A stretch of 64,000 bases of DNA from the NCBI GenBank assembly GCA_945871915.1, contig CAMBXO010000001.1, forward strand, positions 186,001 to 250,000, given 5' to 3'. The notes under the pieces are model-generated. The model was given only the letters and a program-made list of their open reading frames with translations. It ran no database searches and was not told where the DNA came from. The position numbers and the translations under genes were made by a program. The stretch comes from Singulisphaera sp. GP187. GTDB taxonomy: Bacteria; Planctomycetota; Phycisphaerae; Phycisphaerales; SM1A02. Positions 34,632 through 63,344 of this stretch are shown here, in pieces. Each line of letters starts with the position of its first letter. Within the stretch, counting starts at the first letter, position 1.

Positions 34632-35307
34632 CCCCAAGTTCGCGAAGCGCCTCAAGGGCTGCAAGTTGCTCGGCCGCTTTTTTGGTGGCTCCCCAACACG
34701 ATGGAAACCTGCGATCGCCACTCACCACCGCAACTTCAAAGCATTTGGCGTGATCGGGACCTTTTTCATCCAGCACCAGATAGGTGGGCGGAGCGAGGCC
34801 GATGGAATTCATGCTCTGCTGGACAACGCTTTTGTAATTGAATTGGTGGCCGCTCCGAGAGGCTTGCTCCACACGGCTTTCAATCATGCGTAGCACCAAA
34901 TTGCGGGCAGCTTCAAGGCCGCCGTCGAGATAGATCGCCCCAAGAATGGACTCAAGCACCGCGGCACTCACGGAGGCTGGAAGCGTGCTGCGAGGGCCCA
35001 TGCCTTTGCCAAGCACAATGCATTGATCGAGTTGTAATTCACGTGCAATTTCGGCGCAGGTCTGGCGACTGACCACATGACTTTTGATCTTGGTGAGTTC
35101 GCCTTCGAGTCGTTCTGGAAGCCATCGAAAAAGATGCTCGCACGCGATCAAGCCAAGCACGGAGTCACCAAGAAACTCCAGTCGCTCGTTGCTCACCAAT
35201 CGGCGGTCAGCGATGCTGGCGTGGGTAAGGGCCGTGCACAACAAGGATCGATCCCGAAAGTGATATCCAATTCTTTCCTCTAAGTCCGCCAGCATTTTCT
35301 CGTCCAT
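34555..35307 (-). CDS. rnc: ribonuclease III
   Basis: Predicted 250 aa, the full length for RNase III. The nuclease domain has the signature NERLEFLGDSVLGL, with further catalytic acids in ESILGAIYLDGG. The double-stranded-RNA-binding domain follows (NYKSVVQQSMNSIG to KKAAEQLAALEALREL). It cuts double-stranded rRNA precursors. In this genome it would also be expected to cut the tracrRNA:crRNA duplex of the Cas9 system at 58.5-63.3 kb. Its 3' end overlaps aroK tail to tail by 77 nt. Confidence 0.95.
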   Translation of the reverse strand: MDEKMLADLEERIGYHFRDRSLLCTALTHASIADRRLVSNERLEFLGDSVLGLIACEHLFRWLPERLEGELTKIKSHVVSRQTCAEIARELQLDQCIVLGKGMGPRSTLPASVSAAVLESILGAIYLDGGLEAARNLVLRMIESRVEQASRSGHQFNYKSVVQQSMNSIGLAPPTYLVLDEKGPDHAKCFEVAVVSGDRRFPSCWGATKKAAEQLAALEALRELGVMKPDESGLEVIHWPGLRERYPDSK

Positions 35308-57793: not shown

Positions 57794-58477
57794 ATGCATC
57801 CACTTGATGAGATCAAACTTCCCCCGACACCGATTGGCACGGATCGGGACTTTGAGCGGCTGGCCCTGGCGGGGTCGGAACTCTCCCGGGGTTGCTCTGG
57901 CTGGGTTTTTGTGGTGGTTGGCCTTGTTTCGCTTCCTGGATGGGGCATCCCGATCGGGCTCTTGGCCACTCTTGGTGGGTGGTTTCGAGTCATGGCGCTG
58001 CGAAAGATCGTGGCGGCAAGTGGACCACCTTCCAAAGTGGCTGTGGGTTGCTGGGCGTGGCTCTTGGTGGCGGCTCTGTGGAGCGTCGCAGGAATTGGGG
58101 TGTCCATTGCACTGATCGCCACAAGCATGAATGTGGACATTGGTTGGTCGCTGGTGGCGCGAGATGTGTGGCGGCTGCTTGGAATTGTGGAAATGCTGGT
58201 CGCGATTGGGTGGATTTGCCATGAAGCCCTTCAACGCCGCAGTGCGTGGATTGTGATCGTGATGGCTCTTGCCGTCGTGTGCCTGACCGCGTGCGTCGCG
58301 GCACAGATTCTTCGGGGGCAATCACAAGTGGATTCCCAATCGCAACCGTTGCTCTTTCTTCTCTTTCTCACCGTAATTTTTGGAGGCGGAGTGACCTCGG
58401 TCCTGCTTATTGCCGACGCCGCCAACCGACTTGTGCAATCCATTGCGACCGACACGCTGGATCAGGAAACCCTCTGA
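57794..58477 (+). CDS. multi-pass membrane protein, unknown function
   Basis: Predicted 227 aa from ATG 57794. About five membrane helices (WVFVVVGLVSLPGWGIPIGL, CWAWLLVAALWSVAGIGVSI, VEMLVAIGWICHEAL, IVIVMALAVVCLTACVAAQI, LLFLLFLTVIFGGGVTSVLL). The N-terminus is short and cytoplasmic. No recognised family. It is divergent from the S41 protease. It sits just before the tracrRNA gene, which reads toward it; the tracrRNA terminator separates them. Confidence 0.6.
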   Translation: MHPLDEIKLPPTPIGTDRDFERLALAGSELSRGCSGWVFVVVGLVSLPGWGIPIGLLATLGGWFRVMALRKIVAASGPPSKVAVGCWAWLLVAALWSVAGIGVSIALIATSMNVDIGWSLVARDVWRLLGIVEMLVAIGWICHEALQRRSAWIVIVMALAVVCLTACVAAQILRGQSQVDSQSQPLLFLLFLTVIFGGGVTSVLLIADAANRLVQSIATDTLDQETL

Positions 58478-58540
58478 CAAGAAGGTGATGCGAGCCGTTC
58501 CGGCTGGCTGTGATTGGCTGTCAGCCAGAATTTCGCCCAA

Positions 58541-58663
58541 GAAAAAGAAAACGCTCCTGCCGGTGAAGGAGAAGCGTTTGGGTGGATGCGCCGAAGCGCA
58601 GTGCCGTGCGTCGACGAAAGTCAACTTACTGTGAGTAGCCGACAAGCGCCGCTCAACTACACT
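58541..58663 (-). ncRNA. tracrRNA of the type II-C system
   Basis: About 123 nt on the minus strand. The first 36 nt (58663 down to 58628) form an anti-repeat that can pair with the whole CRISPR repeat: 30 Watson-Crick pairs, 4 G-U and 2 mismatches, with 20 identical bases at 58644-58663. Three hairpins follow: GTTGAC/GTCGAC with loop TTTC (58610-58625), TGCGC/GCGCA with a TTCG tetraloop (58587-58600), and a 10-bp terminator stem (58549-58579) followed by TTCTTTTTC. The order anti-repeat, nexus-like hairpin, terminator is that of known tracrRNAs. It is divergent from cas9. Confidence 0.9.
58549..58579 (-). terminator. intrinsic terminator of the tracrRNA
   Basis: On the minus strand AAACGCTTCT (58579-58570) pairs with AGGAGCGTTT (58558-58549), 10 bp with one G-T pair and an 11-nt loop, followed by TTCTTTTTC. 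It also forms the last hairpin of the tracrRNA. Confidence 0.85.
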
Positions 58664-58668
58664 GCCCA

Positions 58669-58699
58669 AGTGTAACGGGTTGGGGGTTTTGCGTGTCAA
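58669..58699 (-). promoter_or_regulatory. tracrRNA promoter
   Basis: Minus strand TTGACA (58699-58694), a consensus -35, and TACACT (58674-58669) with a 19-nt spacer (TTACAC, one base off, gives 18). The start would fall at about 58662-58663, the first base of the anti-repeat. It lies wholly within the leader of cas9, so tracrRNA and cas9 promoters must face each other in a 70-nt space. Confidence 0.8.
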
Positions 58700-58731
58700 C
58701 CCTCGGGGCATCAATTCTGGAGAACTCAATA

Positions 58732-61700
58732 ATGACGAAGACAACTGCTCCGTGGCGGCTTGGCCTAGATATTGGTTCCTCAAGCGTGGGGTGGGCAGCT
58801 TTAGAGCTTGCATCGAAAAACGGCCAACCATCTGGGATTCTCGGCTTAGGAGCCCGCGTGTTTGATGCTGGAGCAGATGGTGACATTGAATCTGGTAAGG
58901 ACGAGTCCCGGTCGACCAAGCGGCGAGGCGCTCGTCTCCAGCGGAGACAGGGAGAGCGTCGTGTTAGGCGCATGCGCAACTTGTTCAATGAACTTCGTCG
59001 TGCGGGCTTGCTGCCGGGCGTCGGAGCCGCTGATCCGACAGTGATGCACGAGACCATTCGCTCGCTTGACACGCAGTTGCGGCCCTTGTTCGTGGCAGAG
59101 GGCGATCATCGGCAGCATCAACTCCTTCCGTACTTAATCCGCAGTGCTGCAGCAGAGCGGAAATTGGATCCCCATGCAGTCGGGCGCGCGCTCCTGCACT
59201 TAGCGCAGCGTCGTGGTTTTCAATCGAACCGAAAAGAGTCTTCGAAGCAGACCGACGAAAAAGAACTCGGTCCAGTCAAGGAAGGGATTGCAACACTCGC
59301 GGCAATAATGGGCACGAAGACGCTCGGCCAGCATTTCGCGTCACTCGACCCGGAACTTCATCGGATCCGCAACCGATGGACTTCGCGCGATATGTACAAG
59401 GCAGAGTTTGACCAGATCCGCGAGACTCAGAAAGATTTCCTAACGCACCTCGATGACCAAGCCTGGGGCCGCATTCGCGACAGAATTTTTAAACAGCGCC
59501 CTCTGAAGTCGCAGAAGGGCAAGGTTGGCCGATGTGAATTCATCCGCGCGGATCGCCGGGCGCCGATTTGGTTGCCGGAATTCCAACGGTTTCGTCTGCT
59601 CGCTACAGTGAATCACTTGCGCGTACGAACGGCAGAAAAAGAAGACGCGGCCATCACAGTCGCTAATCGCCGAGGGTTCACGGATCGCCCATTGACTGCT
59701 GATGAACGCACAGCGGCCATCCGGATGCTCGAACAACGAGCCGATGTCAAATTGACATCGTTGCGCAAGCAACTCAAGTTATCGGGAACGACGTTTAGTA
59801 TAGAAGAGGGTGGCGAAAAGCAGTTGAAGGGAGACACAACCTCGGCCCGGATGCGAGGCGTGTTTGGTGATCGATGGGACACGATGTCGGCGAATGATCA
59901 AAGTCGGGCGATCACTGATGTGCTCAGCATCGAACAGGACGCGACCATGGCGAGGCGAGGTTGTGAAGTGTGGGCACTCTCAACCGAAGACGCCCAAGCG
60001 TTTGTGAAGGTGCGATTTGAGGAGGGATACGCGAGCCTCGGGCGACGCGCGATCGCACGCCTGCTGCCCCATCTTGAATCTGGACTCTCAATACAGGAGG
60101 CAAGAAAGCTCGCGTTTCCGAATCACTTTGTGGCCTCCGAACGCAAAGGAACACTGGCACCGGTTCGAAAGTCGCTCTACCACTTGCGAAACCCAACCGT
60201 TGAGCGATCACTCACCGAGGTACGCCGCATCGTGAATGAACTGATCAGAATGCATGGGGTTCCCGAGCAAATCCACATTGAACTTGCGCGCGATATCAAG
60301 CGAAGCAAGAAAGACCGCCAACAGATGACGAAGGAGAATCGCTCACGGCAAGCGGAACGCGAAGGGGCTGCGGAGAGAATCAAGGCGTATGTTGGCAATC
60401 CGAGCCGTTCCGACATCGAGAAAGTGCTCCTACACGACGAGTGCGGCGGTCGTTGTCCATATACCGGTCAATCCATTCCGCTGGAGAACCTCTTTTCCGG
60501 ATCGTCTGAGTGGGATGTCGAACACATCATTCCTTTCAGTCGGAGCCTTGATGACTCGTTTGCCAACAAGACACTCTGCAATAGCGATCAGAACAGGTCG
60601 CGTAAGGGAAACCGCACGCCGTTTGAAGCCTATGGCGGCGATCCGGCGAGATATAACGAAATTCTGGCACGGGTTGGCAAGTTTCAAGGTGAACTAGTTC
60701 GGGTGAAATTGACGCGATTTCGGCTCCAGATGGTCGGATCTGAACTCTGCGATGAGTTTTGCAGCAGGCAACTCAACGACACCCGATATGCAGCAAGGCT
60801 GGCGCAGCACTATGTCGAGACTCTGTACGGTGGACTTTCCGACGCAAGTGGTATTCGACGCGTGTTCGCATCTTCGGGGCAAGCGACCGCCATTGTTCGT
60901 CGCGAGTTGGGAATCGTAGGACTGTTACATCCGACTGGAAGTGACATCAAGAATCGCGACGACCACCGACACCACGCAACGGACGCGATCGCGATCGCAT
61001 TGACGAGTCCAGCCATGGTAAAGCGGCTGGCTGACGCAGCGGAGGGTGCGTGGGCCGCAAAGAGACGGCGCTTTCTGCCAATCGAAGCCCCATGGCCACG
61101 GTTCGTAGACGAGGTTGACGCGAAACTTAGGGAGATGGTGGTGAGCCATCGTGGCAGCCGCGTGCTATCAGGCGAATTGCATGAGGCAACGAACTACAGT
61201 GCGCCTATCGGTGGAGACCCGGAACACCGGCATGTCCGAAAACCAATGAGTGCATTTGCCAAGGGGGGCGACATCAATGACATTGTGGACGATGCCGTGA
61301 GGGAAGCCGTCCAGAATCATCTCAACAAGCATGGTGGGAACAAAAAGGTGTTTGCCATCGCCGAGGATCCCCCTCGCATGTTGATGAAAAACGGAACTTC
61401 GGTCGCAATTCGACGAGTGCGTATCCGCGCTTCGCGAGGGACGGTCGTACCGGTTGGAAACGATCGCCGACGGCGTTATGTAGCACCTGGCGCGAATCAC
61501 CACATGGTGATCGTTGCGGTGATTGGTGCCGATGGAAAACCCAATCGGTGGGAGGGTCATGTGGTCACAAGATTGGAGGCTGTTCGTCGTTCTGCGAACA
61601 AGTTGCCCGTGATTCAGCGCGACTGGGGCACAGACCGCAAGTTCTGCTTCACACTTGCGAGTGGGGATATGGTGCGCCTCACAATTGATGGGGAAGGCAC

Positions 61701-61890
61701 GGTGTGGTTGGTTCGCGGGGTATCCGGATCGAGACTCGATCTCACGCCAGATCGAGAAGGGAGACCCGTCACGGTGCTTCGCCAACTCAGAGTTAGTTGG
61801 AAGCCGACGGTCAATACGGCAATGATGCAACATGAGATGCAGCGTCTCGAAGTTTCTGCCTGTGGTGTGGTTCGTATCTGCAATGCCTAA
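58732..61890 (+). CDS. cas9: CRISPR-associated endonuclease Cas9, type II-C
   Basis: Predicted 1052 aa, a compact Cas9. GGAG lies 9-10 nt before the ATG; an upstream GTG at 58693 lies over the tracrRNA -35 and is less likely. RuvC-I is LGLDIGSSSVGWAAL with D13. The Arg-rich bridge helix (STKRRGARLQRRQGERRVRR) is at about 60-90. RuvC-II is IHIELARDIKRSKK with E517. The HNH domain has CPYTGQSIPLENLF and DVEHIIPFSRSLDDSFANKT with H598. RuvC-III is DDHRHHATDAIAIAL with H748 and D751. So all nuclease residues are present. The C-terminal ~300 residues would read the PAM. It overlaps cas1 by 8 nt. Confidence 0.97.
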   Translation: MTKTTAPWRLGLDIGSSSVGWAALELASKNGQPSGILGLGARVFDAGADGDIESGKDESRSTKRRGARLQRRQGERRVRRMRNLFNELRRAGLLPGVGAADPTVMHETIRSLDTQLRPLFVAEGDHRQHQLLPYLIRSAAAERKLDPHAVGRALLHLAQRRGFQSNRKESSKQTDEKELGPVKEGIATLAAIMGTKTLGQHFASLDPELHRIRNRWTSRDMYKAEFDQIRETQKDFLTHLDDQAWGRIRDRIFKQRPLKSQKGKVGRCEFIRADRRAPIWLPEFQRFRLLATVNHLRVRTAEKEDAAITVANRRGFTDRPLTADERTAAIRMLEQRADVKLTSLRKQLKLSGTTFSIEEGGEKQLKGDTTSARMRGVFGDRWDTMSANDQSRAITDVLSIEQDATMARRGCEVWALSTEDAQAFVKVRFEEGYASLGRRAIARLLPHLESGLSIQEARKLAFPNHFVASERKGTLAPVRKSLYHLRNPTVERSLTEVRRIVNELIRMHGVPEQIHIELARDIKRSKKDRQQMTKENRSRQAEREGAAERIKAYVGNPSRSDIEKVLLHDECGGRCPYTGQSIPLENLFSGSSEWDVEHIIPFSRSLDDSFANKTLCNSDQNRSRKGNRTPFEAYGGDPARYNEILARVGKFQGELVRVKLTRFRLQMVGSELCDEFCSRQLNDTRYAARLAQHYVETLYGGLSDASGIRRVFASSGQATAIVRRELGIVGLLHPTGSDIKNRDDHRHHATDAIAIALTSPAMVKRLADAAEGAWAAKRRRFLPIEAPWPRFVDEVDAKLREMVVSHRGSRVLSGELHEATNYSAPIGGDPEHRHVRKPMSAFAKGGDINDIVDDAVREAVQNHLNKHGGNKKVFAIAEDPPRMLMKNGTSVAIRRVRIRASRGTVVPVGNDRRRRYVAPGANHHMVIVAVIGADGKPNRWEGHVVTRLEAVRRSANKLPVIQRDWGTDRKFCFTLASGDMVRLTIDGEGTVWLVRGVSGSRLDLTPDREGRPVTVLRQLRVSWKPTVNTAMMQHEMQRLEVSACGVVRICNA

Positions 61891-62788
61891 TCTCATCCTC
61901 GATCTGTCGCATGATCCCTGTCGACTCGGCGTCGAGGGCGCGTTACTCGTGTTGCGGCGACCCGACCAGCCGGACTTCAGCCACAGGATGGACGAGATCG
62001 CAGCCATATGCGTGAGCCAGCCCGCAGCCACCATCTCATTCAGGGCGCTGGGCGCACTTGCTTCAAACGGTGTCGTAGTCGTGGTCTGCGACGAGCGACA
62101 CGCGCCAACGGGGATGCTTATGCCTCTGTCAACCCACCATGCGCAGACGCCTCGCTTCGCCGAGCAGGCGGCAATGACGCTCCCCGATCGCAAGCGACTG
62201 TGGCAACAAATTGTTCAATCCAAGGTCACTCAGCAGGCACAGGTCCTCAAAGCCGCAAATGGCACAGGGCTGGCTCTCATGGCAATGGTCCCACGCGTGA
62301 TGTCAGGTGATACGACCAACATCGAAGCGACGGCAGCGGCTGCGTATTGGCGTGCCCTAATGGGCGACGACTTTCGACGCGACTACGAGGGCAAAGGAAT
62401 CAACGCACTCCTCAACTACGGATATGCGATCGTGCGTTCAGCTATGTGTAGGGCAATTTGCGCGTCCGGTCTGCACCCTACGCTCGGACTTCACCACCAC
62501 CACCGGGAAAACCCGTTTTGCCTCGCCGATGACTTGATGGAGCCCTTCAGACCGCTGGTGGACTGTGTGGTTTGGCAGATCATGAACACCGATCCCAATG
62601 CCGAACTCACTCCTGAGAATAAGCGGCACATTATCGATTTCATTACCGAGCGTCACTGTGTTGCCAACGAGGAACGCACGCTCTTTGATCTCTGTGCTCG
62701 TACAGCACAGTCGCTCGTTCGAGCGATCCTAGGGACAGACAAACGATTGGACCTACCAGTATGGGATCTCAATGCCAAGCCGAACTGA
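61883..62788 (+). CDS. cas1: CRISPR-associated integrase Cas1
   Basis: Predicted 301 aa, type II Cas1. The catalytic residues fit the family: E148 in GDTTNIEATAAAAYW, His at about 204-205 in LGLHHHHREN and E220 in LADDLMEPFRP. With Cas2 it inserts spacers into the array. The ATG overlaps the cas9 stop by 8 nt (ATGCCTAA), so they are translationally coupled. An in-frame ATG at 61832 would add 17 residues inside cas9 and is unlikely. Confidence 0.96.
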   Translation: MPNLILDLSHDPCRLGVEGALLVLRRPDQPDFSHRMDEIAAICVSQPAATISFRALGALASNGVVVVVCDERHAPTGMLMPLSTHHAQTPRFAEQAAMTLPDRKRLWQQIVQSKVTQQAQVLKAANGTGLALMAMVPRVMSGDTTNIEATAAAAYWRALMGDDFRRDYEGKGINALLNYGYAIVRSAMCRAICASGLHPTLGLHHHHRENPFCLADDLMEPFRPLVDCVVWQIMNTDPNAELTPENKRHIIDFITERHCVANEERTLFDLCARTAQSLVRAILGTDKRLDLPVWDLNAKPN

Positions 62789-63125
62789 ACGACGGAGGCC
62801 GCTCTGTGCGTACCGCATAATGTGGATCTTTGCCATGTTTGATCTTCCAGTCCGGACTCGCGAACAGCGGCGGACGCACTCGCGATTTCGAAAGTTCCTC
62901 AAGCAGGAGGGCTTTGGAAGGATCCAACTCAGCGTCTACGCTAGGCACTGTCCAAATGAGGATCAAATCAATGTCCACATGGCCCATGTGCGAAAGCGGC
63001 TTCCCGAGGAAGGGGAGGTGCGAATGCTCGCTGTCACCGATCGGCAGTTTGGTCGAATGGAGTCTTACTTCGGCTCAAAACGAACCCCCCAAGAAGTCCC
63101 GCCCACACAACTGATGCTGTTTTAG
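62772..63125 (+). CDS. cas2: CRISPR-associated protein Cas2
   Basis: Predicted 117 aa. MWIFAMFDLPVRTREQRRTH holds the conserved Asp of Cas2, followed by FRKFLKQEGFGRIQLSVYAR. The C-terminus is PTQLMLF. It overlaps cas1 by 17 nt. Together with Cas1 it forms the spacer integrase. No csn2 or cas4 follows, which fits subtype II-C. Confidence 0.95.
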   Translation: MPSRTERRRPLCAYRIMWIFAMFDLPVRTREQRRTHSRFRKFLKQEGFGRIQLSVYARHCPNEDQINVHMAHVRKRLPEEGEVRMLAVTDRQFGRMESYFGSKRTPQEVPPTQLMLF

Positions 63126-63137
63126 CCGGAGCAAGCC

Positions 63138-63170
63138 GAAGCAAGTCTCGCGTGTTGCGAGACTTGCTTC
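63138..63170. terminator. perfect 14-bp hairpin between cas2 and the array
   Basis: GAAGCAAGTCTCGC (63138-63151) and GCGAGACTTGCTTC (63157-63170) with a GTGTT loop. It lies 12 nt after the cas2 stop and 6 nt before the first repeat on the plus strand. No T tract on either side. It may end both the cas mRNA and the minus-strand crRNA transcript, or mark the array end for the integrase. Confidence 0.6.
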
Positions 63171-63176
63171 GTCACT

Positions 63177-63344
63177 AGTGTAGTTGAGCGGCGCTTCTCA
63201 GCCCCCCACAGCGTGTTAGACCCGTTCAGTGGGAGCGGAACAAGTGTAGTTGAGCGGCGCTTCTCAGCCCCCCACAGCGCACTGCACTGCTTGGTGCTGG
63301 AACCGCATAGTGTAGTTGAGCGGCGCTTCTCAGCCCCCCACAGC
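63177..63344 (-). CRISPR. CRISPR array, 3 repeats and 2 spacers
   Basis: Three identical 36-bp repeats lie at 63177-63212, 63243-63278 and 63309-63344, with two 30-bp spacers (63213-63242, 63279-63308). Read on the minus strand, each begins GCTGTGGGGGGCTGAGAAG and ends CTCAACTACACT. This direction is set by the tracrRNA, whose anti-repeat pairs along the whole repeat, and resembles repeats known from II-C systems (start GCTG, 3' end TACNCT). The repeat farthest from cas2 (63309-63344) runs into the trpE/pabB coding end. Spacer targets cannot be found here without a search. Confidence 0.97.

Follow-up and report, generated by a model that had tools for sequence, protein, structure and literature searches.

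A 64,000-nucleotide (nt) stretch of the genome of Singulisphaera sp. GP187, analysed at its full length and called the window here, carries between positions 58540 and 63344 what is very probably a complete type II-C CRISPR-Cas9 (clustered regularly interspaced short palindromic repeats and the associated nuclease Cas9) adaptive immune system. The parts listed in a preliminary description of this DNA, namely a trans-activating CRISPR RNA (tracrRNA), cas9, cas1, cas2 and an array, have all been found, and the planctomycete host that it proposed is also supported. That description had overlooked the direction of the array and its leader, and it mentioned neither the palindrome within the leader nor a stop codon of a trpE-like gene (63330-63332) that lies within the last repeat. 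The locus is ordinary of its kind, one among hundreds of relatives; of its parts, the leader element alone was not found described in the literature searched.

Components and subtype of the locus

The reading frames of cas9, cas1 and cas2 are free of frameshifts and internal stops, and each product scores above the cut-off of its NCBIfam model (Table 1), the Cas1 score having been obtained with the first methionine left off. Pfam and PADLOC are in accord with these calls, PADLOC naming Cas1_II and Cas2_II adjoining cas9. The array comprises three identical 36-nt repeats and two spacers of 30 nt, and position 63344, quoted previously as the end of the locus, is the last base of repeat 3. On gene content and family models the subtype is read as II-C, because the interval from cas9 to the array holds only cas1 and cas2 with no room for a further gene, because the host genome (assembly 98% complete) has no match at an E-value of 0.001 to Cas4, which type II-B requires, and because the type II-D model, Cas9d, matches residues 482-984 of Cas9 at 162.9 bits, below its curated cut-off of 375. 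No csn2 lies at the locus, the rest of the genome not having been searched for Csn2, and the genome carries one cas1 only. The same subtype had been claimed earlier from the missing csn2 and cas4, and gene order, the Cas4 search, the family models and PADLOC agree with it. Another type II subtype (II-A, II-B or II-D) or an IscB-like relative is already disfavoured to the point of being hardly credible: the weak Cas9d match lies far under its cut-off, no additional gene or Cas4 match speaks for a different subtype, cas1 and cas2 are present, the 1052-residue (aa) protein has an alpha-helical lobe (Cas9_a), and its structural model aligns over the full length with II-C Cas9s.

The tracrRNA, predicted from sequence, combines an anti-repeat with short stem-loops and a terminator-like site on the minus strand at its distal end. 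The predicted duplex between repeat and anti-repeat reaches -64.1 kcal/mol, compared with -40.1 kcal/mol for the best competitor among 664 strand-windows, each 60 nt long, taken from the 10 kb around it, array and anti-repeat excluded. In all 19 loci with a readable repeat, the window included, the anti-repeat lies upstream of cas9 on the opposite strand; their cognate duplexes are strong in every case (mean -58.2 kcal/mol versus -33.6 kcal/mol for swapped partners), and the cognate anti-repeat ranks best among the 19 for 15 repeats, second for three and third for one. The suggestion that the guide structure differs from that of studied Cas9s is not borne out by the window tracrRNA, the only copy that was folded, nor by the 18 other loci, where the anti-repeat occupies the same place. 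With the arrangement TTGACA-N19-TACACT (TTGACA at 58699-58694, TACACT at 58674-58669), transcription of the tracrRNA would begin at roughly base 1 of the anti-repeat. Counted by eye and with the window included, 17 of these 19 loci have TTGAC upstream of their anti-repeat, and a consensus scan that allowed spacers of 16-18 nt only returned no promoter at the tracrRNA start. One relative, L021, has two anti-repeats upstream of cas9 (L021:252-286 and L021:395-420), perhaps belonging to two tandem tracrRNA genes.

In Cas9, the RuvC and HNH catalytic residues D13, E517, H598, H748 and D751 occur at exactly the positions first reported, and in an alignment of 50 relatives the last four are invariant while D13 is kept in at least 90%. 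The protein had been singled out as compact; its 1052 aa are normal for type II-C, the solved NmeCas9 chain having 1082 residues and 69 of the 80 named relatives having a full-length frame within the 960-1150 aa that we set as size bounds. An AlphaFold2 model built from 50 sequences (mean predicted local distance difference test score 87.2, predicted template modelling score 0.78) finds Nme1Cas9 of Neisseria meningitidis as its top Foldseek match (E 2.4e-50, 24% identity), and VIA-align 2 superposes it on HpaCas9 (Z 31.8, 919 residues, root-mean-square deviation 8.2) and Nme1Cas9 (Z 31.2, 936 residues, deviation 6.3), with alignments that run end to end, from residue 3 or 5 to residue 1052. 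The best solved match in a sequence search covers residues 8-766 only and leaves the C-terminal side, which reads the protospacer-adjacent motif (PAM), unaligned. According to the model, the PAM-reading part is present but too diverged for sequence search, and therefore the PAM is not predictable from relatives.

The Nme1Cas9 type II-C system has the same gene content and dual RNA, and the two proteins share both size (about 1050-1080 aa) and fold; they differ in being 23-27% identical, with a sequence alignment that stops at residue 766, so that the PAM is not transferable. HpaCas9 and GeoCas9/ThermoCas9 are likewise among the top fold matches and cover the entire model, differing by an identity of about 18-25%. 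No near-identical described orthologue emerged, since the best solved relatives are approximately 20-27% identical to the window Cas9 and the nearest genome relatives 44-47%. No characterised planctomycete Cas9 was evident by title in the literature searched, which is weak evidence, subscription journals having been outside its scope. The window Cas9 adds to the diverged II-C proteins a member of a lineage with no characterised enzyme in that literature, and it may widen the choice of PAMs.

Table 1. Features of the CRISPR-Cas9 locus, in window coordinates
Feature	Position	Strand	Remarks
Complete CRISPR-Cas9 locus (very probable)	58540-63344		tracrRNA (-), cas9, cas1, cas2 (+), leader, array
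tracrRNA, about 124 nt (predicted from sequence)	58540-58663	-	anti-repeat, stem-loops, terminator with T-run near 3' end
Anti-repeat	58629-58663	-	repeat search
Predicted tracrRNA promoter	58669-58699	-	TTGACA and TACACT, 19-nt spacer
cas9	58732-61890	+	1052 aa; TIGR01865 (NCBIfam Cas9), 602 bits, cut-off 100
cas1, type II / NMENI	61883-62788	+	301 aa; ATG at 61883; TIGR03639 (cas1_NMENI), 259 bits, cut-off 120
cas2	62820-63125	+	101 aa; TIGR01573, 63.9 bits, cut-off 24.5; PADLOC Cas2_II
Leader at the proposed acquisition end	63126-63176		51 nt, cas2 stop to repeat 1
CRISPR repeat 1 (next to the leader; last in crRNA order)	63177-63212	-	repeat search
Spacer 1	63213-63242	-	30 nt
CRISPR repeat 2	63243-63278	-	repeat search
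Spacer 2	63279-63308	-	30 nt; no convincing match
CRISPR repeat 3 (first in crRNA order, presumably the oldest)	63309-63344	-	overlaps 3' end of trpE-like gene

Proposed direction of the array and its leader

Since the tracrRNA is predicted on the minus strand, the CRISPR RNAs (crRNAs) would also lie on the minus strand, which means that the array would be read from the side of the trpE-like gene towards cas2, and we infer that its growing end adjoins cas2. In all 19 repeats of the anti-repeat set, the repeat ends in TACACT when written in the crRNA sense, which resembles the -10 box carried by II-C repeats such as those of Neisseria. Promoters inside II-C repeats are described in an excerpt of PMC12080349. 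A growing end beside cas2 is reported for Riemerella in the part consulted of PMC6008519, and for type II-C generally in excerpts of PMC12080349, PMC8092290 and PMC12638026. The Riemerella anatipestifer II-C system differs, as far as the same part of PMC6008519 goes, in its 47-bp repeats and A/T-rich presumed leader, as opposed to the 36-nt repeats and palindromic leader of the window. The window array is too short to reveal its own polarity, and among 29 arrays of relatives, each with four or more repeats and a distal flank of 45 nt or longer, the terminal repeat is mutated at the distal end in four and at the cas2 side in none (Fisher p 0.11, a weak test). Two further relatives, L140 and L153, have mismatched cas2-side repeats and were excluded from the 29 for a distal flank shorter than 45 nt or fewer than four repeats, and L114 has additional repeats past its counted end.

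The stretch between the cas2 stop and repeat 1, which we infer to be the acquisition leader, contains a palindrome (63137-63171), an inverted repeat whose two 15-nt arms are fully complementary. Of 56 named loci, 41 have 47-52 nt separating the cas2 stop from the first repeat (the window has 51 nt) and the other 15 fall outside this range; another 24 of the 80 loci were dropped, 13 because cas2 was missing and 11 because no array lay close to it. When 57 distinct leaders out of 64, limited to gaps of about 45-62 nt, were aligned without gaps and anchored on the repeat, an A at -34 was found in 52 (1.49 bits), a T at -13 in 53 (1.53 bits) and a T at -12 in 45 (0.93 bits), with the palindrome centred near -23, compared with a maximum of 0.29 bits in the opposite flank of 44 distinct arrays. 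The corresponding window bases are 63143, 63164 and 63165. In a mostly more distant set of 17 loci with cas2 and array within 400 nt, A(-34) appears in nine and T(-13) in 14 as printed, the first repeat having been misplaced by the script in L163, L168 and L187; a hairpin is seen by eye at the same place in plasmid systems of Pigmentibacter, Limnohabitans and Azospirillum.

It is conceivable, at somewhat less than an even chance, that this palindromic leader, whose A(-34) and T(-13) are separated by 21 bp or about two helical turns, acts as a hitherto undescribed signal in the DNA that guides insertion by the II-C Cas1-Cas2 proteins, perhaps together with a host DNA-bending protein. That the palindrome is instead a two-way transcription terminator is an unlikely but serious alternative: it sits between convergent transcripts, a T-run follows the hairpin in the crRNA sense in a few relatives (L087 and L094, for example, by eye), and 27 of 46 leaders fold more strongly than shuffled sequences (z below -2) in the cas sense, as do 25 in the crRNA sense, the window leader reaching z = -4.96 with the stop codon included. 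The remaining 19 of 46 fail to reach z -2, however, the window palindrome has no T-run and the terminator scan named none there, and the strongest conservation falls on individual bases whose spacing from the repeat is constant, which suggests DNA binding. Column covariation yields no strong pair (best 3.2 on a rough scale), and the palindrome is therefore better read as conserved DNA with variable stems than as one RNA structure.

No title on a II-C leader motif appeared in the literature searched, with the same weakness as evidence. Leader motifs of type II-A are reportedly treated in one paper (PMC5382924). Poly(A)/poly(T) stretches common to II-C and VI-B leaders are noted in an excerpt of PMC8092290. 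If the insertion signal is real, the leader-anchoring sequence of type II-A would have its II-C equivalent here, situated at the 3' end of the crRNA and shared by systems of many phyla. The set of relatives makes testable the neglected question of how the insertion site is found in II-C systems that grow at this end.

Spacers, probable site of insertion and proposed operation

Spacer 1 read on the plus strand is exactly ten codons that spell V-L-D-P-F-S-G-S-G-T, a DNA methyltransferase motif. The best viral match, in a gene on an IMG/VR contig, is identical at 26 of 30 positions, all four differences being synonymous, and its frame matches Pfam N6_N4_Mtase at 152.8 bits. Of 18 phage records with a match, five cover more than 80% of the spacer at weak E-values of 0.05 to 8; four of these are annotated as methyltransferase or methylase, and the fifth is a second record of the same phage labelled 'hypothetical'. 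Partial matches listed in phage records fall in other genes. A degenerate scan of viral contigs gave 13 stretches with 4-7 mismatches; in all 13 the motif lies within an open frame 226-543 aa long, and 11 have a PPY motif. Because of the frame and the shared motif, spacer 1 is assigned from its sequence to a DNA methyltransferase gene family of the sort that phages carry. Weak matches of spacer 2 in 86 phage records (for instance in phiKZ-like phages, 91% over 23 nt, E 0.6) were rejected as chance. Exact scans of viral contigs with the cores of both spacers found no perfect protospacer; across 400 genomes of the order, at up to three mismatches, the sole match was the window's own array (1 of 400), and at the same tolerance neither spacer has a second site in its own genome that would indicate self-targeting. 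The protospacer search that had been proposed as a route to the PAM was run and allowed none to be inferred, with no perfect protospacer for either spacer; a single 26/30 match does not suffice to draw one.

The cassette sits between two genes that adjoin each other in congeners, a conserved hypothetical gene (stop at 58477) and the trpE-like gene. The latter lies to the right of the array, is cut by the window end and has TIGR00564 as its best model (329 bits on 222 aa, which is under the full-length cut-off). The first 15 nt of repeat 3 in the crRNA sense (GCT GTG GGG GGC TGA) form the last four codons and the stop of this gene, and trpE-like transcripts would therefore run straight into the array. 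In 15 other genomes of the genus, the same S41 protease gene (Pfam Peptidase_S41) lies within 1.5 kb beyond trpE in 14, the fifteenth locus ending at a contig edge, and in five of the 15 the conserved hypothetical gene stands between trpE and the protease, in the order of the window. Each of the 14 readable congener trpE ends has its own tail and stop. A genome draw that included six of these congeners gave no match to the window Cas9 in any of them, the remaining nine not having been searched for Cas9. The simplest reading is a gain of the cassette in this lineage, probably after the species split from its congeners and by insertion between two convergent genes.

In the mechanism that we propose, Cas1-Cas2 would insert new spacers between the palindromic leader and repeat 1, and crRNAs would be transcribed on the minus strand towards cas2, probably helped by the -10-like TACACT with which every repeat ends. 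The crRNAs would then each pair with the tracrRNA, and the duplex may be trimmed by RNase III, which is encoded away from the locus at 34639-35283 on the minus strand (G000:C1:220639-221283). Cas9 would cut matching double-stranded DNA beside a PAM on the protospacer's leader side, and phage-type DNA methyltransferase genes would be one class of targets.

Several observations weigh against a working system of this kind. Here, the tracrRNA and crRNAs are predictions from the DNA, the array has two spacers only, and no perfect protospacer was found in the viral contigs, phage records and 400 genomes, so that recent use can only be supposed. Three of the four positions at which the best viral sequence differs from spacer 1 lie at the PAM-side seed end of the minus-strand guide, and that virus is therefore taken as homologous to the source, not as an established target. 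As regards transcription, an AGTGTA start (the TACACT end in crRNA sense) is shared by only 23 of the 56 repeats of the wider named set, most variants retaining TA and T at the same places, and no -35 box lies at the proper spacing in the repeat, for which reason repeat-borne promoters can only be suggested. The four mutated distal repeats among 29 arrays are also well below the 60% of mutated extra II-C repeats given in the excerpt of PMC12080349.

An alternative is a silent remnant of recent arrival, which would be undamaged in sequence yet unexpressed, with two spacers left or gained. Such a remnant would account for two spacers where many relatives have 18-56 repeats, for the lack of a perfect protospacer, for the absence of Cas9 matches in all six congeners of the draw, and for a promoter scan around the array that found none. 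We consider it improbable nonetheless, as cas9, cas1 and cas2 are undamaged, the three repeats are identical, the tracrRNA retains a terminator and promoter-like sequence, and Cas1 and Cas2 score above their family cut-offs.

Relatives and distribution

The window Cas9 joins a well-populated II-C kind. Within the order, 56 of 301 genomes have a match to it (44 of 244 in the good-quality subset), many of the weak matches being other Cas9s. A genome scan with the single Cas9 protein as query returned no match, and an alignment-based scan of a species-genome collection returned 402 stretches; 354 of these encode a relative, and the 80 best were retained for comparison. In a quick tree of 81 Cas9s, 30 of the 69 named rows have a Planctomycetota title, the others belonging to Acidobacteriota, Lentisphaerota, Zixiibacteriota, Nitrospirota and more. 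The nearest sisters in this tree are the planctomycete L102 and L109 (Shimodaira-Hasegawa-like approximate likelihood ratio test support 99), and the window Cas9 and its sisters are nested in a mostly planctomycete set (support 86); the highest identity of the window Cas9 in the tree is 45%. The unnamed II-C clade around them (L083-L162, Planctomycetota and other phyla) has similar repeats, the leader element and, in most loci that show all parts, the order cas9-cas1-cas2-array; it differs in a Cas9 identity of 36-47% and in the longer arrays of many members.

Viral contigs contain 19 loci that encode a Cas9 relative, some only about 25% identical. Two IMG/VR contigs classed as viral, L163 and L164, carry a Cas9 approximately 41-42% identical to that of the window together with cas1, cas2 and arrays; they may represent systems carried by phages, or bacterial DNA wrongly classed as viral. 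On a plasmid of Azospirillum thermophilum (L187:3995-7239), cas9 is annotated as two overlapping pieces adjoined by cas1, cas2 and an array, and is possibly frameshifted. In genome G020, the L034 array contains two repeat sub-families, with GTCCTAGCC and GTTCTGGCC, and the Cas9 frame adjoining it has an internal TAG.

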